From Nakamurella lactea DSM 19367 (GTDB lineage: Bacteria; Actinomycetota; Actinomycetes; Mycobacteriales; Nakamurellaceae): a stretch of DNA of 64,000 nucleotides. Shown here in pieces: positions 2,583 to 10,470 of the stretch. The first letter of the stretch is position 1, and every line of letters begins with the position of its first letter. The stretch lies in assembly GCF_000426645.1 (NCBI RefSeq), contig NZ_AUFT01000016.1, positions 1 to 64,000 on the forward strand, in the 5' to 3' direction. Under the pieces are notes generated by a model. The model was not told the DNA's origin. It worked only from the letters and a program-made list of their open reading frames with translations, and did not search any database. Position numbers and translations under genes: made by a program.

Positions 2583-3017
2583 TCAATGATCAACTATGGT
2601 AACGGTCAGTCGGGCAGCGATCCCGTCAGCAGGCTCGACTCGAAACTGCGGCGACTCGGCAGTGGGTTCGATCTTGATTAGCACCGGACGGCCATCCTTT
2701 GCCGTGACCAATGTTGACTGCTCGGCAGCACTCGACGGAAGCACGTTCACGCGAGCCCCGTTCTCGCAGCTTGCAGAGCTGAGAACTAGGAACGTTCCAT
2801 ACCTTCGAGGAACTACGATTGCTTGGCCGTCACTCATGTCGCTGAGTCCTGGCACCTCACGGCCCCAGGGGTGCTGCCCACAAACGTCCGCTCTCGGGCC
2901 TAGCGGCAGCTTGACGTGGCTCGAATCGCCGGAGCTAGCTGGAATGTGGCCCGAGCCGCAGCCTCCAACCGCAAGAATCACCACCGTGGCCACAATGGCC
3001 GATAGACGCTTGATCAA
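2583..3017 (-). CDS. small lipoprotein encoded with the G1 peptidase
   Basis: A 144-residue exported lipoprotein: MIKRLSAIVATVVILAVGGC gives a short basic start, a hydrophobic core and a lipobox with Cys20. The mature part, about 125 residues, has two further Cys (in DVCGQ and ASCEN) and ends with a likely beta-sandwich (RVEPADGIAARLTVTIVDH). I cannot name a family. Its ATG overlaps the stop of the glutamic peptidase gene by four bases (ATGA), so the two are translationally coupled. It may be a surface partner, inhibitor or chaperone of the peptidase; that is inference from context only. Confidence 0.75.
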   Translation of the reverse strand: MIKRLSAIVATVVILAVGGCGSGHIPASSGDSSHVKLPLGPRADVCGQHPWGREVPGLSDMSDGQAIVVPRRYGTFLVLSSASCENGARVNVLPSSAAEQSTLVTAKDGRPVLIKIEPTAESPQFRVEPADGIAARLTVTIVDH

Positions 3018-4048
3018 TACTCGCCCACCCAGGTAGCATCGAACGCCCCACCACTGACGGCGCTGGCCTCAGCAAGATGGTGTTGATCAGGAGCTGTGCT
3101 GATCATTGTCATTCTAGACAGGGTATCGCCGCCAAAGTATGGGGGATCGGACAGCTGAAGCACGCCGGTGCCGGGGTAAGAGCCATCGGGCTTTCTGTAG
3201 TTAAACGCGTCGTTTTCGAGGGTCAGAGTGGGGAAATGCGCGAGGCGGCTATAGGTGGTATAGCTAGGCCGCTCGACGATCCATTCTGCTTGAGAATCCG
3301 GCGAGACTGCTGGTCTCGTGAGAGTGATGCACACCCCATCCGCGCAGAGTACAAAGTGTGCGTTGTGCTCATCCGGGTCATACGTAGCTGCTACAAAGAC
3401 CTGCGACCCTCCGTAGACCTGGATATCCATCACTGGGATTTCGTCCTCTTGAGGGTAGATCTCTGTCCATAGCCAGTCCTTCTGAGTAGCCCCAGGACTG
3501 TTGTCGCCTATCTGTCCATGAGTGCCAGCCTGAATGAGCGGGTGATTGGCGTCACTGCCTGATCCGAGACCCGGCCAGATGCTGACGTCTGTGGGCAGGC
3601 CGTCCGCAGATGCCAGCAAAGTCGGCTCCGTCCAATTCATTTCAGCATCGTTTGGCGTACCACCAACGGCCATCACGTATCCGTCCCAGTTATCGCTGGT
3701 CGCTTCGATAGCATTCGGAGTTACCTGTCTTGCAGGTCGTTTTGGCGGCACTCCATGGGATCTTGAGGCGATTGGTTTGCCGCAATGGGCCTCCCGAACC
3801 CATCGGATGCTGCCCTTCCGCGCAGCTTCATATATCGAGCTGCCTGAGGCGACACCCAGTTCGGCCAGCTCGCCTGACGTGAGCGGTCCATCGTGGGCTG
3901 GGTACCGAACTTCGGATCCCGCCGGGCATTTGACCGCTGTGTGGCGTTGAACTCCGGGGGCGAGCGACGGTTGCTCGGAGGAGACAGATGGCGCGCCGAG
4001 CGTGCCAATAGCCAGTGCGATGAGTCCAGAGGCCAGTGCGAACGACAT
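3014..4048 (-). CDS. secreted G1-family glutamic endopeptidase (eqolisin-like)
   Basis: I start at ATG 4048 because TTTGGAGAGC lies just upstream and a signal peptide follows (MSFALASGLIALAIGTLGAP). The frame stays open 468 bases further upstream, without family support. The 344-residue product has a propeptide-like region to about residue 110. A peptidase_A4/G1 domain then opens with SDNWDGYVMAVGG, continues with IWPGLG, LIQAGTHGQ (candidate catalytic Gln) and WLWTEIYPQ, and carries the AEWIVERPSY segment that bears the catalytic Glu in eqolisins. These enzymes are pepstatin-insensitive acid proteases acting outside the cell. The lipoprotein downstream overlaps by ATGA. GC content is clearly lower than in the core genes. 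Confidence 0.85.
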   Translation of the reverse strand: MSFALASGLIALAIGTLGAPSVSSEQPSLAPGVQRHTAVKCPAGSEVRYPAHDGPLTSGELAELGVASGSSIYEAARKGSIRWVREAHCGKPIASRSHGVPPKRPARQVTPNAIEATSDNWDGYVMAVGGTPNDAEMNWTEPTLLASADGLPTDVSIWPGLGSGSDANHPLIQAGTHGQIGDNSPGATQKDWLWTEIYPQEDEIPVMDIQVYGGSQVFVAATYDPDEHNAHFVLCADGVCITLTRPAVSPDSQAEWIVERPSYTTYSRLAHFPTLTLENDAFNYRKPDGSYPGTGVLQLSDPPYFGGDTLSRMTMISTAPDQHHLAEASAVSGGAFDATWVGEY

Positions 4049-4728
4049 GTTGCTCTCCAAACGTAGCGCCGATGAATCGGCCGAGCTGCAGTGTGAGTTC
4101 CTCCCCAGGCCGCAGCCAGATGGCGTATCGCCGACCTTCCAGCGTATGTCGTACTGCGAACTCCGGCGGCTGTCAATAGCTCGGACCCACTCAGTTGGCC
4201 CTGCCGGGTCTCGCCGGCACCGACCCCACGCATCGGCCAGCCGGCTGATCTTGTGAGGTAAGCGAGGGTCTTTGCGCACCGTTGGCGTCCTGATCTGGAC
4301 CTCGAAATTTTGCCGCACGCTGCTCGGACGTGGCATGCGGCCCCGCGCCGCCAGAAAGCTAGCTCGCGCGTTCCGCTGGACGCCGTCAGGCGCTGTGATG
4401 GTCAGTTGGGAGTCCACGCCCGGCGACCCGCGATCGAGTACCACCGCCTGGCTCCCGCTCGAGGACGTCGCCCGTGTCCTACGCCGCCGACCCACATCTG
4501 CAGATGTCGGTGCCACGCGGTAGAACTTGTCACGTAACCCCCAGAGCCGACGCCGGCCGCGGGCGTTGCATCACCGGACCCGCCGAGACCAGCCACCCCC
4601 CCCGGCAGTCTCGGCGCCTGGCCGGGCACAACCCCCCGGTGCCCGGCCAGGATCCCGGGCATTTCGCGGCTGGCGACAGGGCTTTGTCGGTGGTAGATGC
4701 GACGCTGGCGGCAGGAAGGGAGTTCTCT
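4049..4728. other. 680-bp region without a supported gene
   Basis: The minus-strand frame of the peptidase remains open up to 4516, but this part has no start site with a ribosome-binding sequence and no recognisable motif. A perfect 12-bp hairpin at 4618-4650 is described separately. I see nothing else. Confidence 0.5.
4618..4650. terminator. 12-bp perfect inverted repeat
   Basis: CTGGCCGGGCAC (4618-4629) pairs perfectly with GTGCCCGGCCAG (4639-4650) around a 9-base loop. No U-tract follows on either strand. It lies about 80 bases before the small membrane protein gene, so it may be an intrinsic terminator protecting that gene or an operator. Confidence 0.45.
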
Positions 4729-4983
4729 ATGAACACCACCGCACCGTCGCGCTGGAGTACCACTCTCGCCGTATTCGGGCTGCTGCTCGTGACTCCGCTA
4801 CTGATCACCGCGGCAATCTCGTACCTTCGGGACGGACTCGGACTCGTAGCGGGAGTCATCGGCGCGCTGGCACTCATGACGGTGATCGGATCGCTCCTCA
4901 CCCTCAAGGACGCACTGGCCGCTCGTCGGAAAGTCCATCAGTCGGACGTGGCGGGCACGCCGAGCTGGCACCCCGAGGCCTGA
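4729..4983 (+). CDS. small two-helix membrane protein
   Basis: ATG 4729 is preceded by GGAAGGGAG at good spacing. The longer frame upstream is Pro/Arg-rich nonsense. The 84-residue product has two transmembrane helices (about 14-33, TTLAVFGLLLVTPLLITAAI, and about 41-61, LVAGVIGALALMTVIGSLLT), a short Gly/Asp loop between them, and a basic then acidic cytoplasmic tail. No enzyme motif is present and I cannot assign a family. It precedes the TIR gene by about 100 bases on the same strand. A functional link (for example a membrane partner of a defence protein) is possible but unproven. Confidence 0.6.
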   Translation: MNTTAPSRWSTTLAVFGLLLVTPLLITAAISYLRDGLGLVAGVIGALALMTVIGSLLTLKDALAARRKVHQSDVAGTPSWHPEA

Positions 4984-5081: not shown

Positions 5082-6002
5082 ATGGCATTGTCACCGAGCG
5101 AGCGCATCCCCTTGATCCGAGAGTGCGCGACGCTGCTCGATAAGCAGGATTGGGCCGAAGTGGATCTTGTGCTGGGCCAGTTCGGCCTGCCGACCTCGGA
5201 CTACGACCTTCCCGAGACCAAGGCCGCCTACGTCATCCAGATGATCCAGAACGCCGGCGACGAACCACTCGCTGCCCTCCACCGGTTCCTGGTCGACGAG
5301 GCGGTCGGATCCGGTCATCCAGGCCGAGGACCTTGGACAAGCGAGAACCTACGACTGTTCTGCTCGCACCTGGCCGCGCACAAGAACGTCGTTGGACAGG
5401 TCCGCGAAGAACTCGCCCGTTTCGGCGTCGAAGGCTTCGTCGCACACGACTCCATCGAACCCAGCAAGGAGTGGGCGCAAGTCATCGAACAGGGCCTCGC
5501 TGACTGCGACGCAATGATCGTGTTCCTGCACGACGGATTCCGCGAAAGCGCCTGGTGCGACCAAGAAGTGGGCTGGGTGCTGGGGCGACAGCGGCCAGTG
5601 CTCCCGCTCAACTACGGCATCCACCCCTACGGTTTTCTCGGCAAGTACCAAGATCAGCCTTGCCAGAACGCAACATCCGTGCAGGTCGCTGCGTTCGTGC
5701 TCGACTGGCTGATCAAGACGCCATCACTCCACGGCCGGCTGTCCCACGGCCTGGTGAACGCGTTCGTGACCAGCGGCAGCTGGAACTTCACCAGGCGGGT
5801 GGTGCCGCTCCTGGAGCAGATCGCGTCAGTGACCGACGATGACCTCACGAACATGGAGAGGGCCGCGCGCGACCACGTAGATGTTCGGGAATGCGCGATC
5901 GGTGAGCAGACCGGACCGGAGTGGGTCGCCGATTTTGTGCGGACTCGCCGCGGTCCGACCGCCGCAGCTACCTGGGTCGATGACACCGAACCACCGTTCT
6001 GA
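5082..6002 (+). CDS. TIR-domain protein with AbiJ-NTD-like N-terminus (putative phage defence)
   Basis: 306 residues. The N-terminal about 80 residues (IRECATLLDKQDWAEVDLVL, GLPTSDYDLPETKAAYVIQM) form a helical domain of the kind seen at the start of AbiJ-type abortive-infection and other defence proteins. Residues about 88-215 are a TIR domain: LRLFCSHLAAHKN (strand A and BB-loop start), EGFVAHDSIEPSKEW, ADCDAMIVFLHDGF, and SAWCDQEVGWVLG, where the Glu of DQEVG is the candidate NAD-hydrolase catalytic residue. The last about 80 residues are helical and unrecognised. Bacterial TIR domains typically cleave NAD+ or make signalling nucleotides on infection. There is no obvious partner effector or sensor gene next door, so it may act as a single-gene system. 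Confidence 0.8.
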   Translation: MALSPSERIPLIRECATLLDKQDWAEVDLVLGQFGLPTSDYDLPETKAAYVIQMIQNAGDEPLAALHRFLVDEAVGSGHPGRGPWTSENLRLFCSHLAAHKNVVGQVREELARFGVEGFVAHDSIEPSKEWAQVIEQGLADCDAMIVFLHDGFRESAWCDQEVGWVLGRQRPVLPLNYGIHPYGFLGKYQDQPCQNATSVQVAAFVLDWLIKTPSLHGRLSHGLVNAFVTSGSWNFTRRVVPLLEQIASVTDDDLTNMERAARDHVDVRECAIGEQTGPEWVADFVRTRRGPTAAATWVDDTEPPF

Positions 6003-6232
6003 ACACTGCGATCTGAGCCGTCTCGCTAGTCGATGGCCAGGTTGTCAGGGGCCATCGAGGGGTCGACGCCGATTGAGTTTGTTAGTTGGAGGCGACTCGG
6101 GCGTCTTGTACATGTGTGGAAGCGAAAACGGTGAGAGGCGGCCGAGCCGGTGGTGTCGCAACGGACGAGGCGTCCGATGCGGCTGCCCGCCAACTGGCCC
6201 ACGGCCGGCTATCTGATGGGCCGGCAGTGGAG

Positions 6233-6715
6233 ATGACTCTGACTCCCGAATCGCTGTACGTGGGTCATCACCTGACGCTGATCCGGACCGCGGCGTTGAT
6301 GACCGATGACCGGGGCCTGGCAGAGGAGATCGTCCATGATGCGTTCGCCGAAGTCATCGCCCGGTGGTCAACCATCGACCCCACGAAGGCGCTCGGGTAT
6401 CTGTATCGCGCGGTGACGAACGGGTGCCGATCCAATCTGCGTCGACGCAGGACGGCCCGGGCCTTCGTCCCCGATCGGCCCACGCCTGAACAGGGTGCCG
6501 ACGAGCCGGTTCTGCAGGCGGCGGGATACGAGCTGATCTTCAAAGCGGTCCGGCATCTTCCGCCGCGTCAGCGGCAGGTGCTGGTCCTGCGCTACTACTC
6601 CGAGCTGTCGGTCGCGGAAACGGCCGATGCTCTGAACATCAGCGAGGGCGCTGTCGCGGTCGCGACACACCACGCGTTGAACTCGCTGCGCTCTCTCCGG
6701 GAGGAGCTGTCATGA
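6233..6715 (+). CDS. ECF-type RNA polymerase sigma factor
   Basis: Region sigma2 is visible at about 10-75 (HHLTLIRTAALMTDDRGLAE, EIVHDAFAEVIARW, ALGYLYRAVTNGCRS) and sigma4 at about 100-155 (HLPPRQRQVLVLRYYSELSV, AETADALNISEGAVA, THHALNSLR). From ATG 6233 the product is 160 residues, the usual ECF length. The frame stays open to a TTG at 6086 with a GGAGG-like overlap, so a longer start is possible. The stop overlaps the ATG of the next gene (ATGA), a membrane protein with the layout of an anti-sigma factor. The pair should form an envelope-stress type switch. Target genes are unknown. Confidence 0.85.
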   Translation: MTLTPESLYVGHHLTLIRTAALMTDDRGLAEEIVHDAFAEVIARWSTIDPTKALGYLYRAVTNGCRSNLRRRRTARAFVPDRPTPEQGADEPVLQAAGYELIFKAVRHLPPRQRQVLVLRYYSELSVAETADALNISEGAVAVATHHALNSLRSLREELS

Positions 6716-7431
6716 ACGACCCCATCGAAGACGAACTGAAGGCAGCGTTCGCCGCGGCGGCAGCCAAGGTGACGGCGACCCGGCCAGTCAGTGAGGTGCT
6801 GGCTGACTTCCCGCCGACCGACGCCGCGCCCGCACCCGGCCGGCGTCGGCCCAACCGGCGGTGGCTGCTGCCGGCGGTGGCTGCCACAGCCACCATCCTG
6901 ATCGCGGTCCCTGCCGTGTGGATCGGACGCTCGGCCACCGAGACGAACACCGCGGCCCAGCTCCAGGTCGCCGGGAACCGGGCCGCCGTGGCCGGCGTGA
7001 GCTTCCCCGTCCCGGACGGTTGGCAAGCCCAGGTCACCAACAACACGGCAGATGCCGTACGGGTCTGCGTCGCAGCCGAACCGACGAGTGACTGCGCTGA
7101 CGGCGTGAGTCTGACGATCGCTGTCGTCGGTGCGACGTTCGGCGGGTTCGACCCGGTTCCTGACCCCATCCTGACGAACTGCCAGTGGATCAAACGTGAA
7201 GGCGATCAAAGCCTCGGCGGCCGCCCGGCGACGGCGGTATCGATCGATTGCAGCGCGACCGGAGACGGCCCTCGCGCTCTTGCCTGGTACCTCCAGGACG
7301 GCTCCTTGTCGATCACCACGCCACCGGCGGTCGCAGCCGCGCAGGCCAGGGAGATTGCCGCCGGTATGGACTTGTCGCAGTGGGCAAACAAGGGCGGCAC
7401 CCCGGTAGTGGTTCAGACCTCGCACCCATAG
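6712..7431 (+). CDS. single-pass membrane protein, probable anti-sigma factor
   Basis: 239 residues: a cytoplasmic N-terminal part of about 47 (IEDELKAAFAAAAAKVTA, then VSEVLADFPPTD), one transmembrane helix at about 48-67 (RRWLLPAVAATATILIAVPA), and an extracytoplasmic domain of about 170 with four Cys (RVCVA, DCADG, TNCQW, IDCSA). The start overlaps the sigma gene by four bases. Position, coupling and topology are those of an ECF anti-sigma factor, but I do not see a HxxxCxxC zinc anti-sigma motif, so binding to the sigma factor is inferred. A 14-bp terminator hairpin follows. Confidence 0.7.
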   Translation: MNDPIEDELKAAFAAAAAKVTATRPVSEVLADFPPTDAAPAPGRRRPNRRWLLPAVAATATILIAVPAVWIGRSATETNTAAQLQVAGNRAAVAGVSFPVPDGWQAQVTNNTADAVRVCVAAEPTSDCADGVSLTIAVVGATFGGFDPVPDPILTNCQWIKREGDQSLGGRPATAVSIDCSATGDGPRALAWYLQDGSLSITTPPAVAAAQAREIAAGMDLSQWANKGGTPVVVQTSHP

Positions 7432-7500: not shown

Positions 7501-8013
7501 TCAGGTGAACCGTGCAGACCACATGTGATCGTTCAGCACGTTCAGGTTCGCCTGCGCCGAAACATAGGCACCGTTGGTGGAACCGGTATAGCTGGTGCTC
7601 GACCACACCTTGATCCTGCAACCGGACTTGCCTTGGAAGGAGCTGATGCGATTCCTCCAGGTGGTGGTGTCGGCCCAGCCATCGTCGATGTCGCCGGTGC
7701 TGGCAGTGCAGTTGCTGCTGTCCCACCACTGGACGTACCCGGCGCCGGTGTTGTAGTCCGAGTTGTCGAAGAAGATGCCGAGGATGTAGTCCTCCGCCAA
7801 CACTCCCGCCGACTTCAAGGCCGCCGACCGGGCCGCCGGCAAATCCGCCTCGTTCTCCACACACGTCATCGTCTTCGTGGGGGCGTAGTACGCGCAGTAC
7901 TTCCCCTCACTCGAGTCGCTGACACTCCCCGCTGCGTGCGCGGCAGCCGGCACCGCGAGCACGGTCGCGCAGGCGACCGCCGCTCCCGCGAACAGTCTTG
8001 ACCATCGAGCCAT
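7501..8013 (-). CDS. secreted protein of I36 inhibitor / crystallin-like type
   Basis: ATG 8013 has AGGGGA upstream and starts a signal peptide (MARWSRLFAGAAVACATVL, cleavage near AHAAG). The mature domain is about 140 residues with four or five Cys. It opens with EGKYCAYYAPTKTMTCVE, has the motif CTASTGDIDDG in the middle, and ends with CRIKVWSSTSYTGSTNGAYV. That last part resembles the Greek-key repeats of peptidase-inhibitor-I36 and beta/gamma-crystallin-like secreted proteins of actinobacteria. The signal peptide and CTA-IDDG motif recur in the gene at 1010-1363. Probably extracellular; an inhibitor role is inference. Confidence 0.7.
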   Translation of the reverse strand: MARWSRLFAGAAVACATVLAVPAAAHAAGSVSDSSEGKYCAYYAPTKTMTCVENEADLPAARSAALKSAGVLAEDYILGIFFDNSDYNTGAGYVQWWDSSNCTASTGDIDDGWADTTTWRNRISSFQGKSGCRIKVWSSTSYTGSTNGAYVSAQANLNVLNDHMWSARFT

Positions 8014-8764
8014 TTGCAGTTCCCCTCTCGAACGGTTTGCGAGGTTCGACCGAACCCCGTCACCGACCAAGACGGCTGAGAACCCAGTTCATTACAAACA
8101 ACTTTCAGCCGTCTCGATAAGCGATTGCCAAACGAGACACCTGGTGACTCCGTGGAACCAGATGTCCGGGAGCGTCGCAAGAGACCCGTTCGTCGGTGAT
8201 CGCACAGGCCGGTCCACAACTGCGATGGCCCGTGTGTCTCAGGCCGCCGCCGCGGCTGATCGAGTTCGGCCCCCAGCGCGAGGTCGCCCCTTGCGGATCA
8301 GCAGTGCGCGAGTGCGTCGGCCGGGATCGTGTGGCTCGCGATCTGACCGAAGTTCCTCGAACAGCACAGCCGAGGCCTCCTGCATGTTGCGCAGACGGCG
8401 CCGTCGCCGCGGATCAAGGGCGACGCCGCTTGACGCTCGGCATATCCCGGCTGGCAGCGCCGGCGCACCGTCCGAGTGCCCGAGTGCCTGCAGGCGGCCG
8501 CGGGCATGTCGTCGGATATGAAGGGCGATCGTATGGCGCCCGGGGCCGAGTTATCCGGCTGCGACGTAGCGGTAGCCCTCGTGCGGGCGGCCCGCTTGTT
8601 GGTGTGCCCGTCGGGCCATTGCGTCGGCGTTGAGTTCGGCCTGAAGCTGCATCCTGACTGTGACAGGTTGGGGTGGCGCAGGGTGGCGGTCTGATCTGGC
8701 CCCACTTGCGACGCGCCGGGGTGGTTGTGGCGGTTTGATCTGGCCCCACCCGAGCCTTGGTGTC
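8014..8764. other. 750-bp region up to istA; holds an inverted repeat and the IS21-type left end
   Basis: AGACGGCTGA (8070-8079) and TCAGCCGTCT (8105-8114) form a 10-bp inverted repeat with a 25-base spacer, 57 bases upstream of the secreted-protein start at 8013, possibly an operator. Beyond about 8120 the frames on both strands look degenerate. A 33-residue open frame on the minus strand (8551-8652) starts at the element border and may be a gene cut by the insertion. The IS end begins near 8655. Confidence 0.5.
8685..8749 (+). repeat. IS21-type left terminal repeats
   Basis: Two 21-bp copies (8685-8705 and 8729-8749) differ at one base and share the core TGATCTGGCCCCAC. They lie just before istA and would be the IstA binding sites. 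The inverted copies at 13008-13040 retain the GTGGGGCCA core. Confidence 0.75.
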
Positions 8765-10470
8765 ATGACTGACACAAGATGGTTGTTGGTGGCCGGGATG
8801 GGATCTCGGGTGGAGCTGTTCGCTGCGATTCGTCGGGATGCCCGGGTCGAGGAACTCTCGATCCGTGCATTGGCGACTCGCCATGGTGTGCACCGGAGGA
8901 CCGTGCGGCAGGCTCTGTCGTCGGCTGTGCCGCCGACACGGAAGGAGCCGGTGCGGTGGGCGCCGAAGCTGGATCCGTTCAAGGCGGTGATCGACGGGAT
9001 GCTGCGTGCGGATTTGGACGCACCGCGCAAACAACGCCATACCGCGACGAGGATCCTGGCCCGGCTGGTTGAAGAGCACGCAGCGACCGGCCTGTCGTAT
9101 TCGACGGTGCGGGACTATGTGCGGGTCCGTCGCGCTGCGATCGATCTGGAGGCCGGCCGCCGCGTCGAGGACGTGTTCATCGCCCAGGACCACGCGCCCG
9201 GCCAAGAAGCCGAGGTCGACTTCGGTGAGGTCTACGTCGTCCTCGGCGGGGTGAAGACCAAGTGCCACATGTTCGTGCTCTGGCTGTCCCACTCGGGAAA
9301 GGCCATCCACCGGATCTACCCGACCCAGGGCCAGGAAGCGTTCCGCAGGGCCATATTGAGCCGTTCGGGGCCATCGGCGGCGTCCCGACGAAGCACATCA
9401 AGTACGACAACCTCACCGCCGCGGTCGCGGCAGTGTTGCACGGCCGGGACCGGCGACGGGATGAGAACGCCCGCTGGGTGCTGTTCCGCTCGCACTACGG
9501 GTTCGACCCGTTCTACTGCCAGCCCGGCATCGCCGGCGCGCACGAAAAGGGCGGTGTGGAAGGCGCTGTCGGCTGGTTCCGCCGCAATCACCTCACACCC
9601 ATGCCCGAGGTCGAATCGCTCGATGAGCTGAACGAGCAGATCAAGGTCTGGGAAGCCGCCGACGACCATCGGCGGATCACCGGGCACCAGAACAACATCG
9701 GCGTCGACTTCGCCGCGGAACGGCCGTTGTTGCGGCCGCTACCGGCCGAGGCGTTCGACCCCGGTCTGGTGCTGCACCCGCGGGTGGACCGCTCGTCGCT
9801 GGTCACGGTGCGGATGGTCCGTTACTCAGTGCCGGCCAGGCTGATCGGCCACCGCGTCCGGGTCTCGTTACGTGCTTCGGAGGTGGTGGTGTTCGACGGC
9901 CGCACCGTGGTGGCCGCCCATCCGCGGATCGCTGCCCGGACGGGCTGTCAGCTGGTCCTGGATCACTATCTGGAGGTGCTGCGATACAAACCCGGCGCGC
10001 TGCCAGGCTCGACCGCGCTGGCCCAAGCCCGCACCGCCGGCGCCTTCACCTCCGCGCACGAAGCGTTCTGGGCGGCGTCTCGCAAAGTCAACGGCGACAC
10101 CGATGGCACCCGCGAGCTGGTCGACGTGCTGCTGCTGCACCGCTCGATGACCGCGGAGCAAGTGACAGCCGGGATCAGCAGCGCTCTGTCCGTAGGAGCG
10201 GTCACCGCCGATGTCGTCGCAGTCGAGGCCCGCCGCCACGCCAACACCACCACAGCAGCGGGTGGGGCCAGCTCGGACCGTCACCATGCTGAACAGAGCG
10301 TTGCCCGTGAGCAGCGGGTTGTCAGCTTGACCCAGCGTCGGCTGACCGACCCGGCCGCGGTGATCGCCGGACTCCCACCAGACACCAGACCCATCCCGTC
10401 CGTCGCCGTCTACGACGAACTTCTCCCACGACGACGCACCGCACCCGACGTGAAAGCGAGCACCAGCTGA
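8765..10470 (+). pseudogene. istA: IS21-family transposase istA, interrupted by a frameshift
   Basis: ATG 8765 begins a typical IstA: N-terminal HTH (VEELSIRALATRHGVHRRTV), then the catalytic core with AEVDFGEVYVVLGG carrying the first catalytic Asp. At about 9341-9350 the frame shifts: the sequence reads TTCCGCAGGGCC where the family pattern F-L-Q/E-G-H would need one more base. The +1 frame continues directly with QGHIEPFGAIGGVPTKHIKY (second catalytic Asp follows in KYDN), AHEKGGVEGAVGWFRR (DDE Glu region) and the C-terminal domain to TGA 10470. A single-base deletion explains this. IS21 istA is not normally expressed by frameshifting, so the copy is probably inactive unless the base is a sequencing error. 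Confidence 0.85.

Follow-up and report, generated by a model that had tools for sequence, protein, structure and literature searches.

The stretch of DNA analysed here, called the window below, covers 64,000 nucleotides of Nakamurella lactea DSM 19367 and codes on its minus strand for an exported peptidase whose sequence and predicted fold are those of the G1 (eqolisin) family, followed by an overlapping gene for a lipoprotein. As judged from gene order and sequence, the two genes form a genuine pair, one that recurs in a minority of G1 peptidases. The best explanation, to which a probability of about 0.4 is given, is that the peptidase is made as a zymogen and that the lipidated protein would be its dedicated partner, retaining it at the face between membrane and wall.

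The peptidase gene (3014..4048, minus strand) starts with ATG preceded by GGAG and codes for 344 amino acids with the amino terminus MSFALASGL; a signal peptide and a prodomain were assigned by eye and from the resemblance to relatives. Its product matches Peptidase_A4 (PF01828) in Pfam with E 7.4e-8 and 32.5 bits, the curated cut-off being 22.3. The LIQAGTHGQ and AEWIVERPSY blocks on which the original prediction based the family assignment are both present. When 15 G1 proteins are aligned, residues Q173, E196 and E259 do not vary. The catalytic Gln, Q173 in LIQAG (codon 3530..3532, minus strand), is found in all 15 rows and aligns with ILQTG of solved eqolisins, while the catalytic Glu, E259 in AEWIVERP (codon 3272..3274, minus strand), was placed by the same alignment and the motifs of the solved enzymes. 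A profile of the 15 proteins finds aspergillopepsin II (E 2.9e-27) and scytalidopepsin B (E 5.9e-20) in the PDB, and both catalytic motifs of the window peptidase line up with those of the two enzymes in the profile alignment. The AlphaFold model of the protein has a mean pLDDT of 66, with 79-94 per ten-residue block within positions 121-260, and displays the two-sheet beta-sandwich characteristic of G1. Its best fold match is scytalidoglutamic peptidase (Foldseek E 8e-9); the superposition of this prediction on structure 2ifw gives a VIA Z of 19.9 over 191 residues at 2.9 Å. Family profile, Gln/Glu dyad and predicted fold all back the G1 identity.

By its sequence the window peptidase is divergent, its nearest relatives found being about 30% identical. 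As a single-sequence query it matches nothing at E 1e-5 in 60 related genomes (16 from its own genus) and has no close homologue in the plasmids, genome_contigs or viral_contigs collections. Four weak matches were obtained among 396 other genomes of the order (one at locus L008), and none of the four loci has a closed G1 ORF according to the profiles. These absences hold at the sensitivity of the searches, since a family search of this genome failed to list the window gene itself. Other G1 genes do occur in some genomes of the genus, and the N. lactea genome has three more G1-like genes (C15, C1:41111 and C1:658199) plus a partial one. A small alignment of the peptidase led to 34 loci in genome_contigs. 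The best relatives are from Actinomycetota, namely Sinomonas humi (L028; 29% identity, E 3e-24) and Flexivirga endophytica (L029; 32%, E 3e-21). The three proteins have in common an IWPG motif, the Cys pair C235-x4-C240 (3329..3346, minus strand) and a prodomain core bounded by C41 and C89 (3782..3928, minus strand), these last two cysteines being invariant in 3/3. The F. endophytica protein (L029 3737-4663) keeps AEWIVERP and has His at the position of the catalytic Gln (LIHDG); it is perhaps inactive or altered. For a ProA-like protein from the same genome as the window, the three best matches among plasmids belong to Nonomuraea, Tsukamurella and Microbacterium (55-61% identity), which together with the Actinomycetota relatives of the peptidase points to an actinobacterial host.

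The lipoprotein gene (2583..3017, minus strand) codes for 144 amino acids. Both ORFs are confirmed within the coordinates of the original prediction and lie on the minus strand. The lipoprotein with two extra cysteines that it described is confirmed as well: the lipobox VGG-C20 is accompanied by C46 and C84. The overlap had been read as ATGA. This is wrong: the start codon of the lipoprotein is a TTG that overlaps the peptidase stop, and the four shared bases are TTGA (3014..3017, minus strand). The TTG is the sole start codon of the frame that retains a basic n-region, which is followed by a hydrophobic stretch and by the lipobox MIKRLSAIVATVVILAVGG-C20. Lipidation is predicted at C20 (codon 2958..2960, minus strand), the lipobox being assigned by inspection and by a detector script that uses a loosened motif. 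The mature protein has no match in Pfam up to E 1. In NCBIfam there is a match to the signal stretch only, below cut-off (E 0.65), and no named lipoprotein or inhibitor family. A single-sequence structure model reached a pLDDT of 34.7, too poor for use. A resemblance to the designed protein ThreeFoil (E 0.0019), in which no single stretch passes alone, and one of a two-row lipoprotein profile to OspA (E 0.59) were both judged to be chance.

The GC content is 0.588 for the peptidase gene and 0.602 for the lipoprotein gene as compared to 0.69 for the window, whose lowest bin (3001-3500, 0.562) is the lone one at or below 0.58 among 128 (mean 0.69, sd 0.042). Lower GC had been taken to point to transfer. 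The difference is real and weak as a sign of transfer: six other G1 genes measured all lie below their loci (gene/locus 0.556/0.599, 0.579/0.648, 0.597/0.687, 0.644/0.677, 0.614/0.665 and 0.594/0.653), and low GC, common in the G1 genes measured, says little on transfer. In favour of transfer stands the lack of a match to the peptidase at E 1e-5 in 16/16 other genomes of the genus.

Four further features of the window were noticed. A TIR-domain protein weakly similar to ThsB-type defence proteins is encoded at 5082-6002 (plus strand). A sigma-70 family factor overlaps a gene lacking a Pfam match (6086-7431, plus strand), whose product is possibly an anti-sigma factor, by position only. A small exported-looking protein (7501-8070, minus strand) gives sub-cut-off Pfam matches to inhibitor family I36 and to syncollin. 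The ORF at 8660-9631 (plus strand) is transposase-like, of the IS21 kind by eye, with weak helix-turn-helix matches only in Pfam.

The frequency of the arrangement was assessed by placing 60 distinct closed G1 genes on a tree and applying a detector that registers a same-strand ORF with the loosened lipobox starting within ~60 nt of the G1 stop. Such an ORF follows 6 of the 11 genes in two clades and 0 of the 49 others, 44 of which have at least 650 nt downstream (Fisher p = 9e-6, kinship ignored). The clades comprise five genes (support 98/87 without L074, 89/36 with it) and six genes (94/97), and their members are two named Actinomycetota together with genomes of the window's own class, genus or genome. 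The start of the lipobox ORF relative to the peptidase stop is -4 in the window, -35 in L029, -10, -4 or +26 in L074, -38 or -14 in L075, +3 to +9 in L077 and -26, +1 or +28 in L096. The clade genes of L002, L069, L077 and L096/L098 are themselves without a Pfam match and were assigned through the profiles made here. L074 is a doubtful member: its peptidase lacks the Gln stretch, its lipoprotein is very small and it is weakly placed on the tree (89/36). Leaving it out gives 5/10. L001, on a very long branch, was counted outside the clades, and its inclusion would give 6/12. Less than 650 nt are available downstream in five genes outside the clades (L026, L033, L039, L052 and L067; the 44 nt of L067 cannot be judged), and lipobox ORFs lie slightly further off after two others (L034, +81; L015, +104). 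ORFs below 25 bits, identical copies, the free prodomain of L096, a G1 gene split over two frames in G484 (L087) and open-ended ORFs (one of L026, L027, L041, L044, L064, L073, L080, L090, L093) had been set aside before counting. The split gene of L087 is followed by an exported-looking 146-aa protein without lipobox.

The rate in the clades was compared with a control of 268 crude gene calls made on 464 kb of the N. lactea genome including the window (length at least 150 aa, GC3 at least 0.75); the window peptidase drops out of it because its GC3 of 0.608 fails the filter. A lipobox ORF this close follows 3/268 genes, and all three are long lipoproteins of 422 to 612 aa, none being of 200 aa or less. 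With related genes treated as independent, the binomial probability of 6/11 is about 1e-9 at the control rate and 6e-6 at an assumed 5%. The lipobox label does not cluster strongly on the tree: five changes are needed, the shuffled mean is 5.8 and 77/500 shuffles are as low. Conservation of the pair, suggested in the original prediction as a check, is seen as recurrence in two clades; none of the 49 G1 genes elsewhere shows it, 44 of them having enough downstream sequence for a judgement. Homologues normally devoid of the lipoprotein, which were to count against the idea, are the rule outside the two clades and not among the nearest G1 genes.

The lipoproteins themselves are hardly alike, therefore position is conserved better than sequence. 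Among the six, probably only the lipoprotein of G544 (L075) is homologous to that of the window, as judged from their alignment: the two are 28% identical (26% when three rows are aligned) and have CG at 46-47 and C84 in common. Their local score is reached by 6/20,000 shuffles and, with Cys masked, by 72/5,000, and one unrelated ORF among 2,796 outscores the L075 lipoprotein against that of the window. The F. endophytica (L029) lipoprotein shares a pattern only, composed of the lipobox, [VI]CG and a second Cys 37-40 residues on; it is missed by the two-row profile, and its score against the window protein, like that of L077, is no better than shuffles. The lipoproteins of L074 and L096 are minis of only ~60 aa, whose mature part could not accommodate a binding domain, and the lipobox of L096 is loose, with Gly at -3. 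No homologue of the window lipoprotein was found in plasmids or in 393 genomes of the class; 396 other genomes of the order gave three weak matches only, with internal stops, and a profile search of eight genomes returned its own two members and weak matches (E 0.07 to 0.6).

Some relatives without an adjoining lipoprotein gene have features of another kind. The S. humi protein (L028 3971-5959) combines in one chain the G1 domain, a PKD domain and five LGFP repeats, which are wall binders, and has no lipoprotein gene next to it. The G1 gene of G477 (L069 2272-3362) is followed by a gene for an exported-looking protein that ends in LVPASG plus a membrane helix (by eye) and then by a sortase gene. 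The enzyme may thus be held at the surface by means that replace one another. A lipoprotein-like gene is divergently transcribed at L002 and a convergent one is found at L023 (by eye), while the detector found nothing after L062 and L001. In the own-genome paralogue at C1:658 kb (L098 3152-4240) a 58-aa ORF with a hydrophobic stretch ending SGSSC begins 1 nt downstream. This mini-lipoprotein-like ORF (L098 4242-4418) overlaps by 4 nt a third one (4415-4804; C1, about 659.2-659.8 kb), which codes for a 129-aa exported-looking protein consisting of a G1 prodomain only. The free prodomain is similar to that of the neighbouring peptidase (z 18.7) and to three others (z from 8.8 to 18.7), and unlike the one of the window peptidase (z 0.4, p 0.32). 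It is possible that it acts as a propeptide-like inhibitor.

The lipoprotein of the window is read here, from sequence and gene context, as a surface partner for which retention ranks first and inhibition second. The peptidase would be exported as a zymogen, with two Cys in its prodomain, and would act outside the cell as an acid Gln/Glu endopeptidase. Its partner would be produced from the same mRNA, probably through translational coupling, and, once lipidated, would sit on the outer face of the cytoplasmic membrane. There it would bind the newly exported zymogen and most likely hold it at the membrane-wall face, so that proteolysis would occur near the cell and not in the medium. The gene overlap, the lipobox and the recurrence in 6/11 versus 3/268 genes argue for retention, which is favoured also by the swap between a lipoprotein, the PKD/LGFP repeats of Sinomonas and the sortase substrate of G477. 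Against it stand the poor likeness of the lipoproteins, the two minis (L074 and L096), the weak clustering on the tree and the more distant lipobox ORFs of L034 and L015.

A partner that changes quickly and a prodomain that stands alone favour instead a tethered inhibitor that protects the producer by blocking peptidase activated while near its membrane. Immunity or inhibitor genes look like small, fast-changing partners directly downstream, a description that suits the lipoprotein, and downstream of the own-genome paralogue lie genes for a mini-lipoprotein and a free exported prodomain. This role is nevertheless rather doubtful: the lipoprotein is not similar to inhibitor families in Pfam or NCBIfam, the window peptidase has its own prodomain, which the free one does not resemble, and Sinomonas manages without a lipoprotein. 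The absence of the gene after 49 other G1 genes, the weak sequence conservation and the weak clustering would fit an ordinary lipoprotein that merely shares the transcript, but the rate in the two clades relative to the control makes this unlikely. Adjoining genes, a predicted common compartment, variable sequences and the existence of two minis would also agree with a substrate trimmed or shed by the peptidase; no stretch fit for a cleavage site is common to the six lipoproteins (by eye) and the Sinomonas gene has no lipoprotein beside it, so that a substrate is quite improbable. Retention by a dedicated partner stays the preferred reading, and the similar pairs in some distant relatives suggest that this fungal-type protease is held or controlled at the surface by the small protein. 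More broadly, the two clades may tentatively be viewed as small surface operons in which the enzyme is joined to a controller or bears its own wall anchor, setting where and when it is active. Within this view the controllers might be membrane-tethered or freely secreted, taking the form of a fast-evolving lipoprotein, a mini-lipoprotein or a stand-alone prodomain. The lipoprotein would be a possible protein partner for the G1 peptidase class, and a recurrent gene partner together with the stand-alone prodomain would offer direct handles on localisation and control of these enzymes.

A literature search of partial coverage retrieved no paper in which a G1 peptidase is paired with a lipoprotein, and no description of such control for glutamic peptidases. 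The window peptidase resembles scytalidoglutamic and aspergilloglutamic peptidases (G1, PF01828) in its Gln/Glu dyad, in the conserved W and E around the active site and in the beta-sandwich of the predicted model (Z 19.9 and 15.4, respectively). It differs from them in sequence (~15-20% identity over the aligned domain), in having WPGLGSG where the solved eqolisins have WVGIDGD, and in its short prodomain with an own Cys pair and the attached lipoprotein gene. Like the window peptidase, the characterised bacterial G1 enzyme pepG1 of Alicyclobacillus is exported and has the same dyad; its description (PMC3009609, 2010) calls the in vivo function of bacterial G1 peptidases unknown, and the word lipoprotein is absent from the main text. 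Neprosin (PMC9343461) is also a glutamic-class zymogen of related fold, its mature form giving Z 13.4 against the predicted window model, but it uses a pair of glutamates where the window peptidase has Gln and Glu.
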